Shown here: piece by piece, positions 4,555 to 15,437 of the stretch
Position numbering within the stretch: the first letter of the stretch is position 1
Layout: each line of letters opens with the position of its first letter
Assembly: GCA_029959285.1 (NCBI GenBank)
Contig: JASCOE010000001.1
Coordinates: 849,724-913,723, forward strand
Source of the DNA: Flavobacteriaceae bacterium PS02337
GTDB lineage: Bacteria; Bacteroidota; Bacteroidia; Flavobacteriales; Flavobacteriaceae
Direction of reading: 5' to 3'
Length of the DNA: 64,000 bases
Position numbers and translations under genes: made by a program
Notes under the pieces: generated by a model
The model's input: only the letters and a program-made list of their open reading frames with translations
The model's database searches: none
Told to the model about the DNA's origin: nothing

Positions 4555-5733
4555 TTATTTAAATGCTGGAATTCCAGTTACATCCATTCCAGTTATTAAT
4601 AAATGAATGTCGTGTGTTCCTTCATAAGTAATAACACTTTCTAGGTTCATCATGTGGCGCATAATAGAGTATTCGCCAGTAATTCCCATACCTCCGAGCA
4701 TTTGTCTAGCTTCGCGTGCGATGGTAATTGCCATGTTTACGTTATTGCGTTTTGCCATCGAAATCTGTGCTGTTGTTGCTTTTCCTTCGTTTCTTAAAAC
4801 ACCTAAACGCCATGTTAATAATTGTGCTTTTGTGATTTCGGTAATCATTTCTGCGAGTTTTTTCTGCTGCAATTGCGTTCCTCCAATTGGTTTTCCGAAT
4901 TGAATTCTTTCTTTAGAATATCTTAAAGCGGTATCATAACAATCCATTGCAGCGCCGATTGCTCCCCACGCAATTCCGTAACGAGCTGAATCTAAACATC
5001 CAAGTGGAGCGCCTAAACCAGATTTATTAGGAAGAAGGTTTTCTTTAGGAACTTTTACATTGTCAAAAATTAATTCTCCAGTTGCAGATGCACGAAGCGA
5101 CCATTTATTATGAGTTTCTGGAGTTGTAAAACCTTCCATACCGCGTTCTACAATTAAACCGTGAATTCTGCCTTCTTCATTTTTTGCCCAAACAATAGCA
5201 ATATCAGCAAACGGAGCATTAGAAATCCACATTTTAGCACCATTTAAAAGATAATGATCGCCCATATCTTTAAAATTCGTAATCATACTTCCAGGATCAG
5301 AACCGTGATCTGGCTCTGTTAAACCAAAACAGCCGATAAATTCTCCCGTTGCCAATTTTGGAAGATATTTCATTTTTTGTTCTTCGTTTCCATATTTCCA
5401 AATCGGATACATTACTAAAGAAGATTGAACAGACGAAGTTGATCTTACACCAGAATCGCCTCTTTCGATTTCTTGCATAATCAAGCCATAAGAAATTTGA
5501 TCTAAGCCAGCTCCTCCATATTCAACAGGAATATAAGGTCCGAAACCACCAATTTCGCCAAGACCTTTTATGATTTGTTTAGGAAATTCTGCTTTTTGAG
5601 CATATTCTTCTATAATAGGAGAAACTTCTCTTTTAACCCAAGCACGAGCTGATTCGCGAACTAATTTATGTTCGTCTGTTAGCAAATCGTCTAAGTTATA
5701 GTAATCTGGAGATTGAAATAGGTCTGGTTTCAT
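4555..5733 (-). CDS. gcdH: Acyl-CoA dehydrogenase, glutaryl-CoA dehydrogenase type
   Basis: 392 residues, normal for the family. Acyl-CoA dehydrogenase N, middle and C domains occur in order (GGFGPYIPVEYGGAGLDQIS; FGLTEPDHGSDPGSM; RIQFGKPIGGTQLQQKKLAE). Two features point to glutaryl-CoA dehydrogenase, the FAD enzyme that oxidises and decarboxylates glutaryl-CoA to crotonyl-CoA in lysine/tryptophan breakdown: Arg97 in RSTSSVQSSLVMYPI, which holds the glutaryl carboxylate, and catalytic Glu371 in YEGTHDIHLL. It is cytoplasmic and monocistronic. Substrate choice is from motif resemblance, not proven. Confidence 0.85.
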   Translation of the reverse strand: MKPDLFQSPDYYNLDDLLTDEHKLVRESARAWVKREVSPIIEEYAQKAEFPKQIIKGLGEIGGFGPYIPVEYGGAGLDQISYGLIMQEIERGDSGVRSTSSVQSSLVMYPIWKYGNEEQKMKYLPKLATGEFIGCFGLTEPDHGSDPGSMITNFKDMGDHYLLNGAKMWISNAPFADIAIVWAKNEEGRIHGLIVERGMEGFTTPETHNKWSLRASATGELIFDNVKVPKENLLPNKSGLGAPLGCLDSARYGIAWGAIGAAMDCYDTALRYSKERIQFGKPIGGTQLQQKKLAEMITEITKAQLLTWRLGVLRNEGKATTAQISMAKRNNVNMAITIAREARQMLGGMGITGEYSIMRHMMNLESVITYEGTHDIHLLITGMDVTGIPAFK

Positions 5734-5753
5734 GTTTTATAATTTTTAACAAA

Positions 5754-5761
5754 CAAATTTA
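5754..5761 (-). promoter_or_regulatory. -7 element of the acyl-CoA dehydrogenase gene
   Basis: The minus strand reads TAAATTTG, an exact TAnnTTTG match, 21 bp before the start codon. Confidence 0.5.
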
Positions 5762-5845
5762 AGCAATATAAATATAACAAATAAACGATAAATTGTTATA
5801 TTTTTTCACATCAAAAATAAAATTAATAGGAATTTGGCAAATTAA

Positions 5846-5879
5846 TTGTAGTTTATTGATAATTTATAGACTATTTTTG
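5846..5879 (+). promoter_or_regulatory. Promoter of the TPR/AraC regulator
   Basis: TTG at 5846-5848, a 23-bp spacer, then TATTTTTG at 5872-5879. Both elements match the Bacteroidota consensus, and the start codon is 20 bp downstream. Confidence 0.6.
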
Positions 5880-5898
5880 AATACCAAAAACAAATTAA

Positions 5899-7674
5899 AT
5901 GAGGCTGATCATCTCTTTTTTATTTTTATTGACACTTAATATCTCTGTGGCTCAAACAAAAAAGGAGTTTACCGAACAAGAGTATCTAGAACTGCAGGAT
6001 AAAATTCGTTTCAGCATGAATGGAAACTTTGATGAAGGTATTGCCTATGCGCTCGAGTTACAAAAATCTACAAATAACGAACATTTAGCTTTTGCTTACG
6101 GTTCGGGATCCTATTTATATCAATTAAAAAACAATAGAACTAAATCTGATGAATGGTATTCTAAGGCATTAGCATATTATAATAAACTTCCAGAATCGGT
6201 TCAAAAAATAAATCTTAGAGCTTACCTATATAATTATAGAGGTTTAATAGAATGGAAAAGACGAAATTTTAGTAATTCGTTGAGTAATTATCAAGAAGGA
6301 ATTAAACTTTCTACCAAAACTAATGATGTTATTCAAATTGTAAAATTTAAAAGTAATATCGCTTTAGTCAACGAGGAAGTTGGTAATTATGAACTAGCTA
6401 TTAGAAACCTCCGACAGAACAGCGAATTCTTAAGCAAGAATGAAAGTCTATACGATGCCGATCAATTTCAAAATAGTAAAAGTAACATTTATACAAATCT
6501 AGGAAATGTGTATGAAGGTTATTATATAAAAAATCGAAAGAAAACTATTTTACTAGATTCTGCAGAATACTTTTATAAAAGGGCAATTACATACTCTCAA
6601 AACTATATAGATAATAAAATGACGGCTACTCTTAGTCTAGGAAATATCTATTTGTTAAAAAAAGATTATAAAAACGCAGAGAAAACCTATTTTTATATTG
6701 CTTTGTATGCTAAACAAAACAATGATGAAGCTTATTACAGAATTGCAAATTATAATTTAGGAGATCTTTTTTATTCTCAAAAAAAATACGACAAAGCTTT
6801 AGTCTGCTTAAAAAAGGTAGATTCTTTATATACAAAGGGGAAAAAAGTAGATAATAGTTATTTCCAGTCCAATTATCTTCAGGCAAAAATTTACAACATA
6901 AAAAACGAGCCAGAACTAGCATTTAAACATTCTAAGATATATTTAGATTCTTATGAAAAATATGAAGGAGATCTTAGAGAAGAAGTTCTAGAAGTTAATT
7001 ACAAACTTGGTACAGCAAATCTCTCCGATGAGATGTTAAGTATTCAAGAGAAATATAAATATGAGGTTTTGTGGAATAAAGCCTTAAAAGTTTTCTATGT
7101 TATTTTGGTTGTCGGAATTGTGTTCTTCTTGATCAAAAATATTCGAGACAAAAATAAAGCACAGAAAAAAATGAATGCTTTAATTGAAGAATTTAAAGCT
7201 AATCTGGAGAAAAAAGAAATTGAAAAAGCCGAAATCGAAAAAACTATAGTAGAAGAACCAATATTTGTAGAAGTTCCAGAATTAGAAGATGTATTACTTA
7301 AAAAGGAAAATGCAAATCTTAGTATTGATGAAGCAAAAGAAAACAAGATTGTAGAAAAATTATTGGCATTAGAAGAGAAATTAGAATACTTAAATGCAGA
7401 TTTTACTTTGTCTTATGTCGCTAAGAAAATTAAAACCAATACAACTTATTTATCTTATGTTGTAAATAAAAGATTTGGTAAATCTTTTGGAGAATATTCG
7501 AATGAGTTGAAAATTAATTATGTAATTAATCAAATGATTACCAATCATTTGTATCGAAAATATTCTACTCAGGCAATTGCAGAAAGTGTTGGTTTTAAAA
7601 ATGCAGTTTCATTTGCAAAATCGTTTCGCAAAAGAACTGGAGTGTCTCCAGCTCAATTTGCGAACAATATTTAG
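5899..7674 (+). CDS. Membrane-anchored TPR protein with C-terminal AraC-type DNA-binding domain
   Basis: 591 residues. A signal peptide (LISFLFLLTLNISVAQ) is followed by a tetratricopeptide-type helical sensor (about 55-375), one membrane helix (VFYVILVVGIVFFLI, about 397-412), an acidic coiled-coil linker, and an AraC-type double helix-turn-helix (about 480-588, with IAESVGFKNAVSFAKSFRKR and TGVSPAQF). The TPR part would be periplasmic and the AraC part cytoplasmic, a one-component transmembrane regulator frequent in Flavobacteria. It ends 10 bp from the end of the six-peptide array, to which it is convergent. Control of the peptide locus is inferred from position and from the direct-repeat operator at 9283-9328. 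Confidence 0.85.
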   Translation: MRLIISFLFLLTLNISVAQTKKEFTEQEYLELQDKIRFSMNGNFDEGIAYALELQKSTNNEHLAFAYGSGSYLYQLKNNRTKSDEWYSKALAYYNKLPESVQKINLRAYLYNYRGLIEWKRRNFSNSLSNYQEGIKLSTKTNDVIQIVKFKSNIALVNEEVGNYELAIRNLRQNSEFLSKNESLYDADQFQNSKSNIYTNLGNVYEGYYIKNRKKTILLDSAEYFYKRAITYSQNYIDNKMTATLSLGNIYLLKKDYKNAEKTYFYIALYAKQNNDEAYYRIANYNLGDLFYSQKKYDKALVCLKKVDSLYTKGKKVDNSYFQSNYLQAKIYNIKNEPELAFKHSKIYLDSYEKYEGDLREEVLEVNYKLGTANLSDEMLSIQEKYKYEVLWNKALKVFYVILVVGIVFFLIKNIRDKNKAQKKMNALIEEFKANLEKKEIEKAEIEKTIVEEPIFVEVPELEDVLLKKENANLSIDEAKENKIVEKLLALEEKLEYLNADFTLSYVAKKIKTNTTYLSYVVNKRFGKSFGEYSNELKINYVINQMITNHLYRKYSTQAIAESVGFKNAVSFAKSFRKRTGVSPAQFANNI

Positions 7675-7684
7675 AGCTGAATTT

Positions 7685-7828
7685 TTAACCATTTCCACCA
7701 CCTCCATTTTTTATTGGGTTGTTTTGCTCAATAGGCGGATCTCCATCGCCTCCGCGAACAACTTTCTGAGCGTCTTTATTTAATTTTTCTACTTCGAAAT
7801 CTGTTATTTTCAGTGCTTTATTTTTCAT
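7685..7828 (-). CDS. Double-glycine leader peptide precursor, array copy 1
   Basis: 47 residues, the last of six tandem copies. The leader MKNKALKITDFEVEKLNKDA continues QKVVRGG, then comes the core DGDPPIEQNNPIKNGGGGNG. The GG at the leader end is the cleavage site expected for a C39 peptidase such as the one encoded at 11953. The core has no Ser, Thr or Cys, so lanthionine, disulfide and thiazole chemistry are excluded. It differs from copies 3-6 in having IEQ in place of VI. No modification enzyme lies beside the array. Function unknown; secreted peptide inferred. Confidence 0.75.
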   Translation of the reverse strand: MKNKALKITDFEVEKLNKDAQKVVRGGDGDPPIEQNNPIKNGGGGNG

Positions 7829-7882
7829 GACTTTATATTTTTTTGGATTGCTTTGAATTGATTTTTTGTATTGAGGATAAAA

Positions 7883-8026
7883 TTAACCGTTTCCTCCACC
7901 GCCATTTTTGATCGGATTGTTTTGTTCTTCTTCTCCCGTTTCTCCACCGCCTCCGCGAACTACTTTTTGCGCTTCTTTATTTAATTTTTCTATTTCGAAA
8001 TCTGTTATTTTCAATGAATTTTTCAT
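7883..8026 (-). CDS. Double-glycine leader peptide precursor, array copy 2
   Basis: 47 residues. The leader is nearly identical to copies 3-5 (KITDFEIEKLNKEAQKVVRG, then G). The core is the most divergent of the set: GGETGEEEQ replaces the DGDPP segment, followed by the invariant tail NNPIKNGGGGNG. The leader and the last 12 residues are thus conserved while the middle varies, as expected for related secreted peptides with different specificities. The contiguous GGGG makes the exact cleavage point ambiguous. The core is acidic and contains one Thr. Confidence 0.75.
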   Translation of the reverse strand: MKNSLKITDFEIEKLNKEAQKVVRGGGGETGEEEQNNPIKNGGGGNG

Positions 8027-8084
8027 GACTTTATATTTTTATGGATTGCTTTAAATTGAATTTTTTCTAGTTTTAGAATGAGAA

Positions 8085-8222
8085 TTAGCCATTTCCTCCG
8101 CCGCCATTTTTGATCGGATTGTTAATTACAGGCGGATCACCGTCACCACCGCGAACCGTTTTTTGCGCTTCTTTATTTAATTTTTCTATTTCGAAATCTG
8201 TTATTTTCAATGAATTTTTCAT
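8085..8222 (-). CDS. Double-glycine leader peptide precursor, array copy 3
   Basis: 45 residues: leader MKNSLKITDFEIEKLNKEAQ then KTVRGG, core DGDPPVINNPIKNGGGGNG (19 residues). The encoded peptide is identical to copy 5 and differs from copy 4 by one leader residue (Ile12/Leu12). The repeated unit includes about 57 bp of conserved spacer, so recent tandem duplication or gene conversion is likely. It is probably cotranscribed with the other copies from upstream of 8817. Confidence 0.78.
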   Translation of the reverse strand: MKNSLKITDFEIEKLNKEAQKTVRGGDGDPPVINNPIKNGGGGNG

Positions 8223-8283
8223 GGCTTTATATTTTTATGGATTGCTTTAAATTGAATTTTTTTTTTGAATTTTAGAATGAGAA

Positions 8284-8421
8284 TTAACCGTTTCCTCCGC
8301 CGCCATTTTTGATCGGATTGTTAATTACAGGCGGATCTCCGTCACCACCGCGAACAGTTTTTTGCGCTTCTTTATTTAATTTTTCTAATTCAAAATCTGT
8401 TATTTTCAATGAGTTTTTCAT
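8284..8421 (-). CDS. Double-glycine leader peptide precursor, array copy 4
   Basis: 45 residues. Same core as copies 3, 5 and 6 (DGDPPVINNPIKNGGGGNG). The leader has Leu at position 12 (FELEKLNKEAQKTVRGG). The nucleotide changes include the silent or near-silent TTCTAATTC/TTCTATTTC difference on the plus strand. Together with copies 3, 5 and 6 it shows that the core protein sequence is held constant. The function of the core is unknown. Confidence 0.78.
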   Translation of the reverse strand: MKNSLKITDFELEKLNKEAQKTVRGGDGDPPVINNPIKNGGGGNG

Positions 8422-8480
8422 GACTTTATATTTTTATGGATTGTTTTAAATTGAATTTTTTTTGAATTTTAGAATGAGAA

Positions 8481-8618
8481 TTAGCCGTTTCCTCCGCCGC
8501 CATTTTTAATCGGATTGTTAATTACTGGCGGATCTCCGTCACCACCGCGAACCGTTTTTTGCGCTTCTTTATTTAATTTTTCTATTTCGAAATCTGTTAT
8601 TTTCAATGAGTTTTTCAT
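8481..8618 (-). CDS. Double-glycine leader peptide precursor, array copy 5
   Basis: 45 residues, protein identical to copy 3. The leader motif EAQKTVRGG lines up with NEQKTMRGG and NEQKTINGG of the cysteine-containing precursors at 11443 and 10996, suggesting the same leader peptidase and exporter. The core is Gly/Asn/Pro-rich with a single Lys and is predicted to be flexible. Confidence 0.78.
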   Translation of the reverse strand: MKNSLKITDFEIEKLNKEAQKTVRGGDGDPPVINNPIKNGGGGNG

Positions 8619-8676
8619 GACTTTATATTTTTATGGATTGCTTTAAATTGAATTTTTTCTAGTTTTAGGATGTGAA

Positions 8677-8817
8677 TTAGCCGTTTCCACCGCCGCCATT
8701 TTTGATCGGATTGTTAATTACAGGCGGATCTCCGTCACCACCGCGAACTGCTTTTTGAGCTTCTTTATTTAATTTTTCTAGTTCGAAATCTCCTAATGTG
8801 AATGTTTTATTTTTCAT
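8677..8817 (-). CDS. Double-glycine leader peptide precursor, array copy 6 (promoter-proximal)
   Basis: 46 residues. It has a divergent leader start (MKNKTFTLGDFELEKLNKEA, then QKAVRGG) but the standard core DGDPPVINNPIKNGGGGNG. It is the first gene of the array as transcribed and the most diverged in the leader, so it may be the founding copy. The promoter for the whole array should lie upstream of 8817, but I find no convincing TAnnTTTG there. Confidence 0.77.
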   Translation of the reverse strand: MKNKTFTLGDFELEKLNKEAQKAVRGGDGDPPVINNPIKNGGGGNG

Positions 8818-9282
8818 TTTCTTTTCTTTTAAAATTATTTTTTAATACTATTAATCTTTCATAAATATTTTTGAGCAGTGTTAACAAATGCGACAAAATC
8901 GACGCTTTTAAACTTGGTTACACTAAAATTTTTTGGGTTTATTTGATTAAAAAAAGCAGTAAAATTGAACTTTCATTTATAAGTTAAATCTCACGATTAG
9001 ATGTTTGATTTTGCTTTTTTTGAGAGGTAATTTTGTTTCAAATTAAGGGCCTTTTTTTATTACTTTTCGAGTTTTTATGTACTCTTTTTGACCACTTTTT
9101 TTCTTTAAAATAATAGAGTTTTTATCCCTTGTTTTTCATGTTTTTTGATATTTGAATTATTACTTATCCAAAACTAGATAAAAACATAAACCGTTAATCG
9201 AAAATCGCCTTTCTGAGCTTTTTAAAGAAAAAAATAACACATAAGTTATTGTTTTTCAATTATTTGTAACATGTAGTATACT

Positions 9283-9328
9283 TGGTATAATTTATAAATT
9301 GTATGTGGTATAATTAATAAAATGTATG
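9283..9328 (+). promoter_or_regulatory. Tandem 23-bp direct repeat, candidate activator operator
   Basis: TGGTATAATTTATAAATTGTATG (9283-9305; 23 bp, first 20 TGGTATAATTTATAAATTGT) is followed head-to-tail by a copy at 9306-9328 with only two differences. The 23-bp period puts both copies on nearly the same helix face. They end about 10 bp upstream of where the -33 element should be, the usual position for an AraC- or LytTR-type activator. The binding protein is inferred. Confidence 0.6.
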
Positions 9329-9359
9329 CATGTATGCGATTTTTATCAATAAAAACTCC

Positions 9360-9367
9360 AATCTTTG
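9360..9367 (+). promoter_or_regulatory. -7 element of the VKOR cluster
   Basis: AATCTTTG differs from TAnnTTTG only at the first base, and there is no TTG at the expected -33 position. A weak promoter next to direct repeats is consistent with activator dependence. Confidence 0.45.
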
Positions 9368-9401
9368 CATTGTAATCATGAATTAAAAACGATTCAAAAC
9401 G

Positions 9402-10958
9402 ATGTTAAAACTGGTCCAAAAATTTCTACAAATTAACAAATACTCAGACATCAAAAATGAGTTCAAGGATCTGTTTTTGTCTCATCCAAATTATCCGAGT
9501 TTATTTGCGATTACAGATTCGTTCGATTTGCTTTCTGTAGAGAATGCGGCAGTGAGAGTTTCGAAAGAACAAATTGTAGATTTGCCATCAAATTTTTTGG
9601 CCTATTTTAAAGATGAATTAATATTAGTTGAAAAAATAAAAAATGGTGTTCGCATCACGACAACAAAAAAAGGAAGTCAAAAATTATCTTATGATAAATT
9701 TCTTTTAGACTGGAATGGAGTAATTGTTGCGATCGAACCAAATAATGTAGTTGCCAGAGAAAATTTAAAAGTAGAGTACAATTGGTTAAAATATTTTCTT
9801 CCTCTTGTTCTTTTAGTTGGATTATCTTTTTTCTATAACAGCTTCGATTTATTTAGTAGTGCATTTTTAGCTACTTCAATAATTGGTTTAGTGGTGAGCA
9901 TATTTATTGTTCAACAAAAATGGGGTGTTAAAAACACAGTAATTTCAAAATTTTGTAATTTAAGTTCTAACTCTTCTTGTCATTCAGTAATAAGTTTCAA
10001 CGACGATATTGCAAATAAGTGGTTAAGTTTTTCAGATTTGCCATTACTTTTCTTTAGTTCAAGCATTATTGCCATTTTAATACAGCCATTAAGTTCAGCA
10101 GTTTTTGTTGGTTTTTTAAGTCTGTTGGCAATTCCGATAGTAGTTTGTTCTATTTGGATTCAAAAATTTGAAATTCAAAAGTGGTGTGTAATGTGTTTAG
10201 CAGTTTCATTTATAATTCTAGCGCAAAGTATCGCTTGGTTTTCATCAGACCTTTTTACATTGAATTTTACAATAAATGCAATTTTTCCTTATGTATTTTC
10301 TTTATTGCTTTTAATTCCAATTTGGGCAGCAGTAAAAGTGATGATTAAGAATATGTTAGATAATGAAAATTCGCTTAAAGAGCTTAAGAAATTTAAAAGA
10401 AACTATTCTCTATTAAACTTCTTATCTAAAAAAGTAAAATATACAAAAGGATTTGAAGATTTAAGAGGTTTAAATTTTGGAAATAAAAACGCAGGAGTTA
10501 AACTTTCAATTATAATTAGTCCAAGTTGCGGACATTGTTATAAAACTTTTCAAGAAGCTTTTGATTTAGTATTGAAGTTTCCAGACAAAATATATTTAAA
10601 CGTTCTTTTTAATATTAATCCAGAAAACAACGACAATCCTTATAAAACAGTTGTAGAAAGATTGTTAACAATCAATAGAACAACTCCAGGGAAAACAGTT
10701 GAAGCGATTTCAGATTGGTACATTAAAAGAATGGTACATAAAAAATGGCTTAAAAAATGGCATGTTGATTCAGTAAGCATGATGATCAGCCAAGAAATTC
10801 AGAAACAATATGATTGGTGTTCGATGAACAATTTTAATTATACACCAGTTAAAATCGTAAACGAAAGATTGTTTCCAAACGAATATGAACTGAACGAATT
10901 GAAATATTTCTTAAATGATTTTGTAGAGGATGTTCAGGTTTTAGAGAGAATAGCATAA
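9402..10958 (+). CDS. C39-like domain / VKOR / thioredoxin fusion protein (disulfide formation)
   Basis: 518 residues. Residues 1-115 resemble a C39 peptidase domain (HPNYPSLFAITDSFDLLSVE) but carry no cysteine, so it cannot cleave and may dock leader peptides. Several membrane helices follow (about 127-310) with the VKOR signature: loop cysteines C185 and C193 and the quinone-site WCVMC (C262, C265). The C-terminal thioredoxin-fold domain has CGHC (C376-C379) and a cis-Pro region NYTPVKIV. Known VKOR-Trx fusions pass electrons from substrate thiols through Trx and VKOR to quinone, making disulfides in the periplasm. The cysteine-containing precursors directly downstream are the obvious substrates. 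It is first in the cluster. Confidence 0.85.
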   Translation: MLKLVQKFLQINKYSDIKNEFKDLFLSHPNYPSLFAITDSFDLLSVENAAVRVSKEQIVDLPSNFLAYFKDELILVEKIKNGVRITTTKKGSQKLSYDKFLLDWNGVIVAIEPNNVVARENLKVEYNWLKYFLPLVLLVGLSFFYNSFDLFSSAFLATSIIGLVVSIFIVQQKWGVKNTVISKFCNLSSNSSCHSVISFNDDIANKWLSFSDLPLLFFSSSIIAILIQPLSSAVFVGFLSLLAIPIVVCSIWIQKFEIQKWCVMCLAVSFIILAQSIAWFSSDLFTLNFTINAIFPYVFSLLLLIPIWAAVKVMIKNMLDNENSLKELKKFKRNYSLLNFLSKKVKYTKGFEDLRGLNFGNKNAGVKLSIIISPSCGHCYKTFQEAFDLVLKFPDKIYLNVLFNINPENNDNPYKTVVERLLTINRTTPGKTVEAISDWYIKRMVHKKWLKKWHVDSVSMMISQEIQKQYDWCSMNNFNYTPVKIVNERLFPNEYELNELKYFLNDFVEDVQVLERIA

Positions 10959-10995
10959 AAAGAATAAAAGATAATAACCCCAAAAACCTGCAGTT

Positions 10996-11175
10996 ATGTT
11001 AAAGAATATTTTGAAGTTGAAAGGTGCAGTAGAATTAACTGCTAACGAGCAAAAAACAATAAACGGAGGAAATGCTCCGATTTGTGATGACGGATTTAAA
11101 GCTAAAAGATGCACAGAATTTGGAACAGTGCCAGCATACTGGAGCTGTGTGCCAAATTATGTTGGAAGCTGTTAA
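10996..11175 (+). CDS. Double-glycine bacteriocin-like precursor with four core cysteines
   Basis: 59 residues. The leader MLKNILKLKGAVELTANEQK continues TINGG, then a 34-residue core starts NAPICDDGFKAKRC with Cys at 30, 39, 51 and 59, enough for two disulfides. There is a Tyr-Trp pair in the centre. It lies 37 bp after the VKOR-Trx gene and upstream of the C39 exporter, the classical layout of a class II bacteriocin-type secreted peptide. Killing activity, signalling or another role cannot be told from sequence. Confidence 0.8.
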   Translation: MLKNILKLKGAVELTANEQKTINGGNAPICDDGFKAKRCTEFGTVPAYWSCVPNYVGSC

Positions 11176-11245
11176 CAATAAGATTTTTTAAGCTCCAAGT
11201 TTTAAAATTTGAAGTTGAACCATGAAAAACGTAAAATAATCAATT

Positions 11246-11377
11246 ATGTTAGAAAAAATTTTAAAAAGCAAAGAGACTAAAAAACTGTCTAAAAAAGAGC
11301 AGAAAAACATTTTAGGAGACGAAGCATCAGAACCAAATTGTTACAATGCTACAGCAGATAAATATTATGCTTGCTAA
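11246..11377 (+). CDS. Short bacteriocin-like precursor with LGD in place of the double glycine
   Basis: 43 residues: MLEKILKSKETKKLSKKEQK, then NILGD, then an 18-residue core EASEPNCYNATADKYYAC with two cysteines. The leader clearly belongs to the same family (MLxKIL start, EQK motif), but the second Gly of the cleavage site is Asp. It may be processed poorly, at another site, or be decaying; the core could still form one disulfide. It lies 70 bp after the four-cysteine precursor. Confidence 0.65.
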   Translation: MLEKILKSKETKKLSKKEQKNILGDEASEPNCYNATADKYYAC

Positions 11378-11390
11378 TTTGAATATTTAA

Positions 11391-11421
11391 ATAGTAACAG
11401 AGCCAAAAACTCTGTTACTAT
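11391..11421 (+). terminator. Hairpin between precursor genes (attenuator-like)
   Basis: ATAGTAACAGAG and CTCTGTTACTAT form a perfect 12-bp stem with a 7-nt CCAAAAA loop. It is followed by ATTAAAAAAATGG and so lacks a T-run on the plus strand. It may be an mRNA-stabilising or partial-termination hairpin that sets the ratio of upstream to downstream peptide. Confidence 0.6.
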
Positions 11422-11442
11422 ATTAAAAAAATGGTATTAGTT

Positions 11443-11634
11443 ATGTTGAAGAAAATTTTAAATCTTAACGGAGCTCAAAGCATACATAAAAATGAGCAGA
11501 AAACTATGAGAGGAGGAATTCCCGAATGCTGGGTTTATGCATTGCAAGCGGGTTGCATTTTAATACCACCAGGCGAAACTTGTCCGATAAATACATCAGC
11601 GGGTATTTGTGATACAAGTCGTCTTTGTTGTTGA
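11443..11634 (+). CDS. Double-glycine bacteriocin-like precursor with six regularly spaced cysteines
   Basis: 63 residues from the ATG at 11443. This start matches the sister precursors (MLKKIL) better than an ATG four codons earlier. The leader ends NEQKTMRGG. The 38-residue core IPECWVYALQAGCILIPPGE continues to a terminal RLCC, with Cys at 29, 38, 47, 56, 62 and 63, the first four exactly nine residues apart. Three disulfides are possible, and the VKOR-Trx protein upstream would be the oxidase. It is followed by a non-coding, hairpin-rich stretch and then the exporter gene. Confidence 0.8.
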   Translation: MLKKILNLNGAQSIHKNEQKTMRGGIPECWVYALQAGCILIPPGETCPINTSAGICDTSRLCC

Positions 11635-11865
11635 TTTTTTAACTTTTTTAAGAGTAATACGATATAGCCTTATTTAGAATTTAGTCATGTTTTTTTTGAA
11701 TGTATAGGCGCTCGATCGTGGAACATTGAGCATTTTCTTAGTATTGATGATTGGTACTAAGATTCTTAGGAGTTGGTCGCTGGGTTTGATTTTATTTGGT
11801 TAGGGTAAAACCGCGACCATGTCCTAAAGAAATTGTGTTGCTGCTAATTTGTTTATAAATAGCCT
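11635..11865 (+). ncRNA. Hairpin-rich non-coding stretch between precursors and exporter
   Basis: No plausible gene is present. Two consecutive hairpins occur: CTTAGTA (11737-11743) with TACTAAG (11755-11761), and TAGGAGTTGGTCGC (11767-11780) with GCGACCATGTCCTA (11813-11826), where 7 bp plus 4 bp pair around an internal loop. A strong terminator follows at 11866. This could be a small RNA or a regulated leader that uncouples precursor from exporter expression. A named RNA family is not recognised. Confidence 0.45.
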
Positions 11866-11898
11866 AACAGAGAAGATTTATGTCTTCTCTGTTTTTTT
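11866..11898 (+). terminator. Intrinsic terminator upstream of the exporter gene
   Basis: AACAGAGAAGA and TCTTCTCTGTT form an 11-bp stem with a TTTATG loop, followed by seven T. It should stop most transcription from the precursor genes, so the exporter needs read-through or its own promoter in the 54 bp that follow. I see no clear -7 element in that gap. Confidence 0.88.
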
Positions 11899-11952
11899 AT
11901 GGATTAACAAGAATTTTTTTTCTTAAATTGCTCTTGAATAAATCAAAATAAA

Positions 11953-14145
11953 TTGAAAAAATTCGCGCATTACAGACAAGCCGATCATAAAGATTGTGGA
12001 CCTACATGTTTAAAAATTATTGCTAAATATTACGGTAAAACGATCAATATTCAGGAGTTGAGAGATTTTAGCGAAACAACTCGTGAAGGAAGCAATTTGC
12101 TTTTTCTGAGTGATGCCGCAGAAAAAATCGGTTTCAGAACTTTAGGAGTAAAACTATCAGTATCCAGAATTGAAGAAGCGCCTCTTCCGTGTATTCTTCA
12201 CTGGAATAAAGACCATTATGTGGTACTTTATAAAATAAAAAAAGGAAAATATTACATCTCCGATCCTGCTTTTGGACTTCTAGAATATAATAAACAAGAA
12301 TTTGTAAAATTTTGGATTGGCAATAATGCTGACGACGAAACAAAAGAAGGAATCGCTCTTTTGATTGAAGCAACGCCAAAATTCTTTCAATCAGATTTTG
12401 ATAAAGAAGAAAATTCAGGTTTAGGATTTAGATTTCTTTCGCAGTATTTATTTCAATATAAATCATTTCTGGTTCAGCTCGCAATTGGACTTTTTGCCAG
12501 CAGTTTGCTAAACTTGATTTTTCCGTTTTTAACCCAAAGTATTGTTGACGTCGGGATTCAGAGTCAGAATATACATTTTATCTATTTAATTCTTTTTGCA
12601 ATGCTTTTTATTTTTGCAGGAAGAACGGGTTTAGAATTAATTCGAAGCTGGATTTTACTTCATTTATCAACCAGAATTAATATTTCTCTAATTTCAGATT
12701 TCTTTATAAAATTAATGAATCTGCCCATTTCCTTTTTCGATGTTAGAATGACAGGAGATATTATGCAACGAATTAATGACCATCGGCGTATCGAAAAAAT
12801 CCTGACAACATCATCTCTAAATGTCCTTTTTTCTGTAATTAATATGTTTGTAATGGGCGCGGTTTTGGCTTATTTCAATCTGCAGATATTCTTCGTGTTT
12901 TTTGTTGGAAGTTTATTTTATTTTGGATGGATAACATTGTTTTTGAAAAGAAGGGAAGTTCTTGACTACAAGCGTTTTGCTGAGGTTTCTAACGAACAAA
13001 ACAAAGTTATGGAACTCATAAATGGAATGCAGGAAATAAAGCTTCACAACGCAGAAAAACAAAAACGCTGGGGCTGGGAATATGTTCAGGCAAGACTTTT
13101 TAGAGTTTCCATAAAAGGCTTGATTCTAGAGCAATCGCAAACAATTGGTTCTTCGGTTATTAATGAATTAAAAAACATTTTTATCATTTTGCTTTCGGCT
13201 AAATTGGTAATCGAAGGTTCAATAACGCTGGGAATGATGTTGGCGATAAGTGCCATTGTGGGAAGTTTAAACGGACCAATTACGCAGTTAATAGAATTTG
13301 TGAGAGAATTGCAAGATGCCAGAATTTCACTTGCCAGATTATCTGAAATTCATGAAAAAGAAGATGAATTGCAGCAAGAAAGTCATCAGACAAATGAGAT
13401 TCCGCATGATGTTGATATTGAAGTTAAAAATTTATCTTATCGTTATTTAGGATCAGATGTTCCAGTTTTAGACAATCTGAGTTTGGTAATTCCTGCTAAT
13501 AAAGTAACCGCAATTGTTGGCGTCAGCGGAAGCGGAAAAACAACTCTGATGAAACTGCTTTTAAAGTTTTATGAACCTGAAAAAGGAGAAGTTCTAATTG
13601 GTAATTCGCAACTCAAAAATATTTCGCAGAAAGCGTGGAGATCAAATATCGGAGCAGTAATGCAAGAAGGATTTATTTTTAGCGATACAATTGCAAATAA
13701 TATCGCTTTTGGAGCAGATAGAATTGACAAAGAAAGACTGGTTTATGCGGCAGATGTGGCGAATATAAAAGAATATATTGGCGGTTTGCCTCTAGGATAT
13801 AATACAAAAATCGGCGCAGAAGGTTTGGGAATGAGCACGGGACAAAAACAGCGTTTGCTTATTGCAAGAGCAGTTTATAAAAACCCAGAAATCTTGTTTT
13901 TTGATGAAGCAACTTCTGCTTTAGATGCCAATAACGAGAAAGAAATAATGAGAAAATTAGATATCTTTTTTAAAGACAAAACCGTCGTTGTCATCGCGCA
14001 TAGATTGAGTACAGTTATGAATGCCGATCAGATTGTAGTTTTAGATAAAGGAAAAATTATCGAAATTGGAAGCCATTCTGCATTAGTTGAACAAAAAGGA
14101 AATTATTTTGAATTGGTTAGAAATCAATTGCAATTAGGAAATTAA
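11953..14145 (+). CDS. Peptidase-containing ABC exporter (C39 peptidase, membrane and ATPase domains)
   Basis: 730 residues, the standard length for a bacteriocin-processing ABC transporter. The N-terminal C39 peptidase has Gln9, nucleophile Cys15 (DHKDCGPTCL), His88 (DHYVVLY) and Asp104 (SDPAFG), all present, so it should cut leaders after the double glycine. Membrane helices span about 165-440. The ATPase has Walker A GVSGSGKTT (523-531), signature MSTGQKQR (627-634, variant of LSGGQ), Walker B ILFFDEA and an H-loop His near 683. The start is TTG: in-frame TGA lies six codons upstream with no ATG between. The HlyD gene begins 2 bp after its stop. Confidence 0.92.
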   Translation: MKKFAHYRQADHKDCGPTCLKIIAKYYGKTINIQELRDFSETTREGSNLLFLSDAAEKIGFRTLGVKLSVSRIEEAPLPCILHWNKDHYVVLYKIKKGKYYISDPAFGLLEYNKQEFVKFWIGNNADDETKEGIALLIEATPKFFQSDFDKEENSGLGFRFLSQYLFQYKSFLVQLAIGLFASSLLNLIFPFLTQSIVDVGIQSQNIHFIYLILFAMLFIFAGRTGLELIRSWILLHLSTRINISLISDFFIKLMNLPISFFDVRMTGDIMQRINDHRRIEKILTTSSLNVLFSVINMFVMGAVLAYFNLQIFFVFFVGSLFYFGWITLFLKRREVLDYKRFAEVSNEQNKVMELINGMQEIKLHNAEKQKRWGWEYVQARLFRVSIKGLILEQSQTIGSSVINELKNIFIILLSAKLVIEGSITLGMMLAISAIVGSLNGPITQLIEFVRELQDARISLARLSEIHEKEDELQQESHQTNEIPHDVDIEVKNLSYRYLGSDVPVLDNLSLVIPANKVTAIVGVSGSGKTTLMKLLLKFYEPEKGEVLIGNSQLKNISQKAWRSNIGAVMQEGFIFSDTIANNIAFGADRIDKERLVYAADVANIKEYIGGLPLGYNTKIGAEGLGMSTGQKQRLLIARAVYKNPEILFFDEATSALDANNEKEIMRKLDIFFKDKTVVVIAHRLSTVMNADQIVVLDKGKIIEIGSHSALVEQKGNYFELVRNQLQLGN

Positions 14146-14147
14146 TC

Positions 14148-15437
14148 ATGAACGAAGATACATTTGAATTAAGAAGCGAAGAAGTTCAGGACATTCTGAC
14201 CAAAGTGCCTCATTGGATGATTCGATGGGGAACAGTCTTGATATTCGGCATTATTATTATGCTGTTTTTTGTTTCCTGGTTTGTAAAATACCCAGATGTT
14301 GTGAGAACAGAAATTGTAATTACGACAAATATTCCGCCAGAGAAAATCGTTTCAAAATCTTCTGGTAGAATTGAAGCTATTTTGGTAAAAGATAAAATGC
14401 CAGTAGCGAAAAACAGTACATTGGCAATTATCGAAAATACAGCCAATTATAAAGATGTTTTTCTATTGAAAAGTATTGTGGATAGTTACGATATCAATAA
14501 TTCGAAAAAGGCTTTTCCTTTTGCTTCGCTAAAAAATACGCAATTAGGAGAAATTGAAAGCGCTTATGCTGTTTTTCAAAAAGATTATCAAGCGCAGCAA
14601 TTGAATGAAAGTTTGCATCCTTTTGAAATTGAAAGCAGAGCACAAAGTTCTGAAAAAATTCAGCTTAAAGAACGATTAGACATTCTGCAGCAGCAAAAAG
14701 TGCTTAACGAAAGTGAATTGGAATTGCAGAAAAATGAAATTGCCCGTTTTGAAACGCTTTTTAATAAAGGAATCATTTCCGCGCAAGAAATGGAAGCGAA
14801 GAAGCTAGGCTATTTACAAGCTATGAAGAGTTATAAAGGGCTTTTAACTTCAATTTCGCAATTAAGGTCCTCTTTAATTGATAATACAAAATCAAGTCAA
14901 AGTTCGCAGATAAACAGCACAAAAGAAGAAGTCAATTTAGGTCGAAGCATGGCGCAGTCTTTTTATCAATTAAAAAAAGTGATAAAAGATTGGGAGCTGG
15001 CTTATACTTTAAAATCTTCTGTCAGCGGAGTTGTCACTTTTTTGCAAGTTTGGAATACAAATCAGACCATAAATGTTGGCGATAATGTTTTTTCAATCAT
15101 TCCAGACGCTAAAAACACTTTTATCGGAAAAGTAAAAGCTCCAGCGTTAAATTCAGGAAAAATAAAAGTTGGGCAACGAGTAAATATTCGTCTGGCGAAT
15201 TATCCTGATAGAGAATTTGGCGTGTTGAAAGGAGAAATTAAAAACATTTCTTTAGTTCCAGATAAAGACGGAAATCTACTGTTGGATGTTGCTCTCCCAA
15301 ACGGATTAAAAACTTCTTACGATAAACAAATTGTTTTTCAGCAAGAAATGAAGGGAAGCGCAGAAATTGTAACCGAAGATTTGCGTTTGATTGAACGAAT
15401 TTTATATCAGTTTAAGAATATTTTTGAGCAAGTTTAG
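14148..15437 (+). CDS. HlyD-family secretion adaptor
   Basis: 429 residues. It has a short cytoplasmic N-terminus, one membrane helix (about 27-46, LIFGIIIMLFFVSWF), a biotinyl-lipoyl half, a long coiled-coil hairpin (about 140-270) rich in Gln/Glu/Lys, the second lipoyl half (SSVSGVVTFLQVWN) and a beta-barrel domain. It is the membrane-fusion partner of the ABC exporter whose gene ends 2 bp upstream, and it links it to an outer-membrane channel not encoded here. Family and order are those of type I peptide secretion. Confidence 0.9.
   Translation: MNEDTFELRSEEVQDILTKVPHWMIRWGTVLIFGIIIMLFFVSWFVKYPDVVRTEIVITTNIPPEKIVSKSSGRIEAILVKDKMPVAKNSTLAIIENTANYKDVFLLKSIVDSYDINNSKKAFPFASLKNTQLGEIESAYAVFQKDYQAQQLNESLHPFEIESRAQSSEKIQLKERLDILQQQKVLNESELELQKNEIARFETLFNKGIISAQEMEAKKLGYLQAMKSYKGLLTSISQLRSSLIDNTKSSQSSQINSTKEEVNLGRSMAQSFYQLKKVIKDWELAYTLKSSVSGVVTFLQVWNTNQTINVGDNVFSIIPDAKNTFIGKVKAPALNSGKIKVGQRVNIRLANYPDREFGVLKGEIKNISLVPDKDGNLLLDVALPNGLKTSYDKQIVFQQEMKGSAEIVTEDLRLIERILYQFKNIFEQV

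Follow-up and report, generated by a model that had tools for sequence, protein, structure and literature searches.

Why would a bacterium carry six tandem genes for short peptides with double-glycine (GG) leaders, the cores of which are not known from any described peptide class? The question is raised by a 64,000-nucleotide stretch of Flavobacteriaceae DNA (hereafter, the window). The present study reveals that this array is one half of a unit, together with a convergent TPR-AraC regulator and a shared control site. That linkage and the shared site probably move the likely role of the peptides from that of an odd bacteriocin to that of an inducer.

Six tandem precursor genes outside the named families

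A sequence-only reading of the window, which left the strand unstated, had proposed an array of six copies. It consists of six ORFs of 45 to 47 aa on the minus strand (7685 to 8817). The copies are spaced 196 to 202 bp apart, and TRF reports 5.4 copies of a 196-bp unit with a score of 1567. As also claimed, all six leaders end in VRGG and are followed by cores of 19 to 21 residues. Numbered from the low coordinate, copies 3 to 6 share the core DGDPPVINNPIKNGGGGNG, and copies 1 and 2 are altered in the middle while retaining NNPIKNGGGGNG. The array features, all from ORFs and sequence, are as follows.

7685..7828, minus strand: array copy 1, GG precursor, core DGDPPIEQNNPIKNGGGGNG
7883..8026, minus strand: array copy 2, core GGETGEEEQNNPIKNGGGGNG
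8085..8222, minus strand: array copy 3, core DGDPPVINNPIKNGGGGNG
8284..8421, minus strand: array copy 4, core DGDPPVINNPIKNGGGGNG
8481..8618, minus strand: array copy 5, core DGDPPVINNPIKNGGGGNG
8677..8817, minus strand: array copy 6, core DGDPPVINNPIKNGGGGNG, the copy closest to the presumed promoter

The window cores contain no Cys, no Ser, and a single Thr, in copy 2; their computed masses are 1792, 1950, and 2015 Da, about 1.8 to 2.0 kDa (19 to 21 residues), and the main core DGDPPVINNPIKNGGGGNG is very hydrophilic (GRAVY -0.99). A search of the own genome at E<=10 gave no array-peptide match beyond the six copies. The view that the peptides lie outside the described classes held against NCBIfam and Pfam, which gave no family match above cut-off for the four of six copies scanned (the two others are identical to a scanned copy or one residue off). 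The best scores of these four were 16.2 bits for the J25 lasso family (cut-off 23), 13.3 for darobactin (cut-off 45), and 12.7 for lanthipeptide (cut-off 22); lanthipeptide, lasso, and darobactin precursors were therefore rejected, as were the other named RiPP families, all matches being below cut-off. The last residues of the array leader are weakly similar to two Bacteroidota leader families of NCBIfam, leader_Chryseo (NF047798) and lant_leader_L1a (NF038153), scoring under the curated cut-offs of both. Furthermore, no modifying enzyme was found in the scanned ORFs of the window cluster.

Array cores are conserved within loci and diverge between them

One window peptide matched 48 of 300 genomes of the same genus at E<=0.01, the own genome included, and the three named relatives carrying it are Flavobacterium. 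Stretches of up to 20 kb were taken from the other 47 array genomes. An iterated leader profile recovered 152 array peptides in the 48 loci, one to eight per locus, counting a short fragment in locus L056 and a peptide with unread bases in L074; in 12 of the 48 loci the array is a single copy. Leader and tail are conserved among these relatives. The leader ends in VRGG, IRGG, or IKGG in 123 of 152 peptides, those of the window included, and most of the 152 end in a Gly-rich tail resembling DP-K-G-GNG. The sequence-only reading had stressed a core free of Cys, Ser, and, one Thr in copy 2 aside, Thr. This stood for the window but not for the family, in which all three residues are missing from just 24 of 152 cores. 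Cys occurs in three of the 152 cores (from reading the seven Cys-bearing peptides); the general trait of array cores is to be Cys-free, not Ser/Thr-free.

The proposed comparison of copies revealed purifying selection on the cores. In the window, core dS is 0.68 and dN 0.10 (15 non-independent pairs), and the 242 pairs compared within arrays across the 48 loci give a dN/dS of 0.23 (core) and 0.33 (leader), with one peptide left out of the dN/dS and identity computations. These values, the kept frames, and the relatives rule out the array as a chance or low-complexity product. Mean core distance is 0.34 within arrays (32 arrays) versus 0.67 between loci, and mean core identity between loci is 38% (41 loci).

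A cluster with cysteine-bearing peptides and a C39 exporter

Acyl-CoA dehydrogenase, regulator, convergent array, and divergent VKOR fusion follow in this order in 47 of 47 loci where the contig reaches. The divergent operon of the window comprises the following genes.

9402..10958, plus strand: C39-like, VKOR, and thioredoxin-like fusion, first gene of the operon (Pfam)
10996..11175, plus strand: Cys-containing GG peptide (ORF, profile)
11246..11377, plus strand: Cys-containing peptide with a GG-like leader, GD (ORF, profile)
11431..11634, plus strand: Cys-rich GG peptide, core GIPECW...RLCC (ORF, profile)
11953..14145, plus strand: C39 peptidase-ABC exporter (NCBIfam; Pfam Peptidase_C39, E 4.6e-34)
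14148..15437, plus strand: HlyD-type adaptor of the exporter (NCBIfam, Pfam)

In the fusion, VKOR scores above the Pfam cut-off, and the C39-like and thioredoxin-like parts score slightly below theirs (Peptidase_C39 21.2 bits against a 22-bit cut-off). The fusion perhaps holds GG leaders during disulfide formation in the Cys-bearing peptides. At least one Cys-bearing leader-type peptide lies opposite the array in every locus (101 in 48 loci), and these peptides may have an antibacterial role. Those of the GIP...CC type, present in 43 of 48 loci, have 77% mean pairwise identity; the array cores diverge instead. Among the scanned large ORFs of 4555-15437, there was no histidine kinase or response regulator.

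The earlier assignment of the array to double-glycine precursors beside a C39 exporter was borne out, with GG in all six copies and a C39-ABC gene scored in 45 of the 48 array stretches. The suggested check of homologues for such an exporter left three stretches unscored: the gene is partial in L063, and none was visible in L068 and L075, whose contigs start within 3.5 kb of the VKOR gene. Relative to VKOR, C39-ABC is downstream in all but L050, which has it on the opposite side.

Related leaders and a common exporter raise the idea that the array peptides, like the Cys-bearing ones, are weapons: microcin-like, Cys-free, and made in bulk, under a regulator that senses envelope stress, competitor products, or similar. 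As many as eight copies per locus would suit it, and core diversity between species also suits arms races. Nevertheless, the cores are short and very hydrophilic, one copy stands alone in 12 of 48 loci, the peptide stays by the regulator where the remaining cluster changes (see below), and general annotation of the window cluster brought no immunity gene to notice. Hence, we consider a weapon unlikely.

A TPR-AraC regulator accompanies the peptide

The gene that converges on the array 3′ end is the following.

5899..7674, plus strand: putative receptor-regulator, TPR-membrane-AraC (Pfam, AlphaFold model, adjacency)

Pfam and the AlphaFold model (mean pLDDT 82.9) indicate a signal-like N-terminus and a TPR superhelix (about residues 26-395), then a membrane helix and, beyond a disordered linker, an HTH_18 domain at the C-terminus; the TPR part would face the periplasm. 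For orientation, DNA-binding RRNPP members carry an N-terminal XRE-type HTH, and the receptor of the pneumococcal rtg locus is cytoplasmic. A profile search with the TPR part ranked engineered TPR proteins and animal LGN/Pins best, with NprR and Rap proteins lower. The fold search placed LGN/Pins first, followed by Rap proteins, several of them solved with their pheromones. This likeness is generic and is no proof that the regulator binds a peptide. Across loci, mean identity is 0.87-0.99 in HTH windows and 0.50-0.71 in TPR windows.

The regulator converges on the array at a gap computed as 14 bp in the window, and at gaps of 12-201 bp in 47 of 47 readable array loci. In L072, outside these 47, the contig ends by the array and the regulator is on another contig; in L051, counted among them, the neighbouring match is short (437 aa) and absent from the regulator alignment. 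Two or three regulator matches accompany one array in 7 of the 47.

Starting from the regulator gave the same association. A search at E<=1e-60 found it in 69 of 300 genomes, comprising all 48 array genomes and 21 more, and 24 stretches covered all 26 regulators of these 21. A convergent leader-type peptide lies at the 3′ end of 23 of the 26, with GG in 17 and a degenerate end (GK, AG, CG, etc.) in six, nearly always within about 60 bp (418 bp in L128). All but one of these 23 cores, that of L124, are Cys-free (22 of 23), and Gly, Pro, Asp, Asn, and Thr are often abundant in them. The same threshold applied family-wide found one of 299 genomes, the own genome; the close regulator clade is therefore nearly genus-restricted. 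An order-wide profile search at E<=1e-50 found 20 of 296 genomes, in 4 of 90 genera. Ten later regulators, from the order profile search and an HTH search, each had a convergent peptide (nine GG, one degenerate). Taken together, 33 of 36 regulators have a convergent leader-type peptide, 26 with GG and seven degenerate, with a Cys-free core in 32 of the 33. A fixed mechanical pattern recovers the peptide at 29 of the 36; the peptides of L127, L132, and L211 and one of L212 were found by reading and missed by the profile. Four loci stand outside the 36: L204, where both regulators fall outside the clade; L213, where the contig end truncates the regulator and the peptide is there; L202, with a broken regulator frame and an array; and L201, with another sensor and no peptide.

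Three loci depart from the pattern. In L121 the regulator has no peptide, other ORFs lying where it would be expected; between regulator and VKOR operon (L121:9243-13193) are an ORF that we take, by its likeness, to be ATP-grasp-like and its companions. L129 has an orphan regulator with no peptide. In L122 the peptide lies next to what remains of a regulator, 2.4 kb from the intact one.

Other regulators served as controls. At 30 other HTH_18 places in the own genome (of 66), no leader match was found at E<=0.05, the best E being 0.085. Three further HTH_18 regulators of 516-563 aa, of unscored TPR content, had no leader peptide by reading, and the fixed pattern gave one spurious match there, 423 bp away and within another frame. 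None of six weaker regulator relatives had a convergent peptide; two of them (L197, L199) have a GG-like ORF about 250 bp downstream on the same strand. In other genera, the closest regulators (L192-L194, E<=1e-80) each have a convergent small leader-like ORF, but each of these contains Cys, and GG occurs in L192 alone.

The peptide is kept at the regulator 3′ end in L118, L135, and L203, where the stretch shows no VKOR match. At L201:1562-2623 (minus strand) an HTH of the same clade is fused to an N-terminal part with several apparent membrane spans. This locus retains Cys peptides and a weak repeat and has neither TPR regulator nor Cys-free peptide. The related clusters L135 and L212 carry both. 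L201 is apparently a sensor exchange, a single case of co-absence in the expected direction. Overall, the linkage of regulator and peptide is well supported.

Three observations concern neighbouring arrangements. L115, L134, and L212 each contain two adjacent regulator-plus-peptide pairs with differing peptides, possibly insulated signal pairs. At L192:9249-10363, in another family, a related regulator precedes several copies of short peptides, whose leader is MKK-NQLLENFQVEELEKRYEM, as well as two larger ORFs; this may be a further modified-peptide cluster. At L204:3348-8551, more distant HTH regulators lie by many GG peptides with another leader (MKKQN-NKLAF...ELN...GG).

Covariation of the array with the regulator

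Given the distances of four flanking proteins, the array core covaries with the TPR part of the regulator (partial r 0.31, p 0.0005, n=41, the array loci of 48 with all needed proteins). The core does not covary with VKOR, on the other side (-0.05), or with C39-ABC (-0.002), and covaries weakly with HlyD (0.16, p 0.006); between the GIP peptide and the TPR part there is no covariation (-0.09, n=36, the loci in which that peptide was also needed). Array and regulator thus share a history partly separate from that of the other cluster genes.

With the leader in place of the core, covariation with the TPR part is just as strong (0.37), and after synonymous-site control the values are 0.32 for leader and 0.27 for core. 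A core-specific coevolution signal was not obtained, the leader covarying with the TPR part to the same extent when four-fold-site controls were applied and along 40-residue windows as well. Since a secreted signal loses its leader, shared descent of neighbouring genes is still a viable explanation. Receptor-ligand selection and neighbour linkage would fit the covariation data alike.

The leader also covaries with the C39-ABC protein (0.25). Together with its covariation with the TPR part and the weak covariation of core and HlyD, this would suit a peptide that helps the export machine, as primer or chaperone for C39 or the C39-like domain, and that lies near the regulator by inheritance from one old cluster. 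Such a helper is very improbable in our view, considering that core and C39-ABC show practically zero covariation, that the peptide persists in the three loci lacking a VKOR match in the stretch, and that the core is under purifying selection within arrays.

A candidate operator between the divergent genes

Footprint blocks between array and VKOR are conserved in 48 of 48 array loci and yielded two features.

9286..9328, plus strand: putative operator, direct repeat, TATAATTTATAAATTGT-like, two copies at a 23 bp period (footprint, half-site scan)
9169..9176, minus strand: conserved CAAAACTA, reverse complement TAGTTTTG (footprint)

We take TAGTTTTG to fit the Bacteroidota -7 box (TAnnTTTG) for the array transcript. 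Direct-repeat half-sites are an arrangement familiar from AraC-type regulators. The repeat lies between the divergent array and VKOR genes and is the sole site with up to three mismatches in the own genome (5.7 Mb). A strict position matrix missed most distant loci and was replaced by a half-site scan.

The 24 regulator-found loci, which played no part in defining the motif, were scanned over their whole 4-19 kb stretches. In all 24, against an expected 1.4 or so, the best repeat falls 3′ of the regulator at a distance of at most about 0.8 kb (the limit was 800 bp for regulators on the plus strand and 840 bp for those on the minus strand). Where the score is 27 or more, this holds in 18 of 18; the other six reach 24-26 of 34, level with or slightly above the 22-25 of random sequence. 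L120 has a tie for the best place, and in L122 the repeat is near the distance limit and away from its peptide. These data are strong sequence evidence for a conserved operator, and the regulator is expected to bind the repeat at 9286-9328.

In the window and in close relatives, the array starts more than 300 bp from the presumed promoter (window 8818-9168), possibly giving a long 5′ leader RNA; in many loci, unlike the window, the whole intergenic stretch is about 260 bp.

The sign of control is not given by sequence alone. The same adjacency, repeat, and covariation would suit a peptide that inhibits the regulator or senses jointly with it, for instance by keeping the TPR sensor inactive until the peptide is displaced or by acting as a feedback brake. 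Export beside a bacteriocin-like operon suits induction better. Moreover, the repeat is upstream of the presumed VKOR promoter, and activators usually sit upstream of the promoter. A negative sign accordingly seems rather improbable to us.

A proposed secreted inducer

The association of peptide, regulator, and site suggests that the peptide is a signal for its own production and for that of the neighbouring antibiotic-like peptides. On balance, we judge it somewhat probable that the array peptides are secreted without modification and act as an inducer, sensed by the TPR domain of the regulator and switching on their own cluster, in a Gram-negative counterpart of bacteriocin pheromone circuits. 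Six tandem genes would supply the inducer dose. The adjoining C39 ABC exporter and HlyD would then perform the predicted cleavage after GG and export, releasing a soluble core of 19-21 residues. Entering the periplasm of the own or a sister cell, the core would bind the TPR superhelix of the regulator (5899-7674), as its predicted ligand. The cytoplasmic AraC-type domain would next act at the repeat (9286-9328), probably in a positive sense, and both divergent transcripts would be switched on, giving more inducer along with the operon of VKOR, Cys-bearing peptides, and exporter.

The inducer is supported by the linkage, the direct repeat, the variable TPR and near-invariant HTH halves of the regulator, and the purifying selection on the core. 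The covariation of the core with the TPR part beyond the flanking proteins, cores that differ between species while the GIP peptide is kept, the co-absence in L201, and the resemblance of the TPR part to TPR proteins that bind peptides, including NprR in the profile search and Rap-pheromone complexes in both profile and fold searches, also speak for it. Against it stand the covariation of the leader and, weakly, of HlyD; the loci L121, L129, and L122; the degenerate GG in 7 of 33 peptides; the weak repeats in six loci; the multiple regulators per array; the Cys in L192-L194; and the generic nature of the TPR similarity.

On this reading the system resembles the BlpC circuit and the RRNPP pairs and belongs to neither, since no kinase/regulator pair was found among the scanned large ORFs and the putative receptor is not a plain intracellular protein. 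BlpC of blp is a GG peptide whose gene lies next to those of bacteriocin-like peptides; an ABC transporter/protease exports it, and the regulator acts at direct-repeat boxes (PMC5295010). Blp-type class II bacteriocin regulons of Gram-positive bacteria and this cluster are alike in GG peptide, bacteriocin-like neighbours, shared exporter, and direct repeats (PMC5295010), a likeness of gene content and sequence. In contrast, blp is described there with a histidine kinase and response regulator (PMC5295010), and here a single TPR and AraC-type protein has a membrane helix, the genus is Gram-negative, and the core is multi-copy, Gly-rich, and Cys-free.

RRNPP systems (Rap, NprR, PlcR, Rgg) likewise have adjacent propeptide and TPR receptor genes (PMC10075063), and the TPR part of our regulator is similar to the members NprR and Rap. 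Their receptors are intracellular and from Firmicutes (PMC10075063), whereas the present regulator combines a signal-like N-terminus and a membrane helix with an AraC-type HTH at the C-terminus, and the propeptide here has a GG leader. The pneumococcal rtg locus brings together a regulator of the Rgg type, a C39 exporter, and GG peptides under common control (PMC7018657). It is like our cluster in having C39 exporter and GG peptides in one locus, but this Gram-positive system is controlled by the SHP-like pheromone pair RtgR/RtgS, not by GG peptides (PMC7018657). Among Bacteroidales RiPP clusters, two have TPR-like genes and one a kinase/regulator pair, and the available part of that report proposes no peptide receptor (PMC10352776). 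A literature search that took in no bioRxiv preprints and few subscription journals, and is weak evidence for that reason, returned no account of this system or receptor architecture.

Meaning for Flavobacterium and the Bacteroidota

We put at even chances that the unit represents a Bacteroidota class of peptide pheromones with a receptor of a new kind. This one-component membrane protein would use a periplasmic TPR superhelix to sense an unmodified, Gly-rich peptide that the cell itself makes and exports through C39, and an AraC-type tail to govern a bacteriocin-like operon, with species-specific peptide/TPR pairs (pherotypes) and near-identical tandem inducer genes. If true, this would be a dedicated peptide quorum-sensing circuit in a Gram-negative phylum and would account for the induction of these peptide clusters in Flavobacterium. 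Silent clusters would then be inducible by a synthetic peptide of about 19 residues, and the dozens of natural receptor-ligand pairs would offer a system for the study of coevolution.
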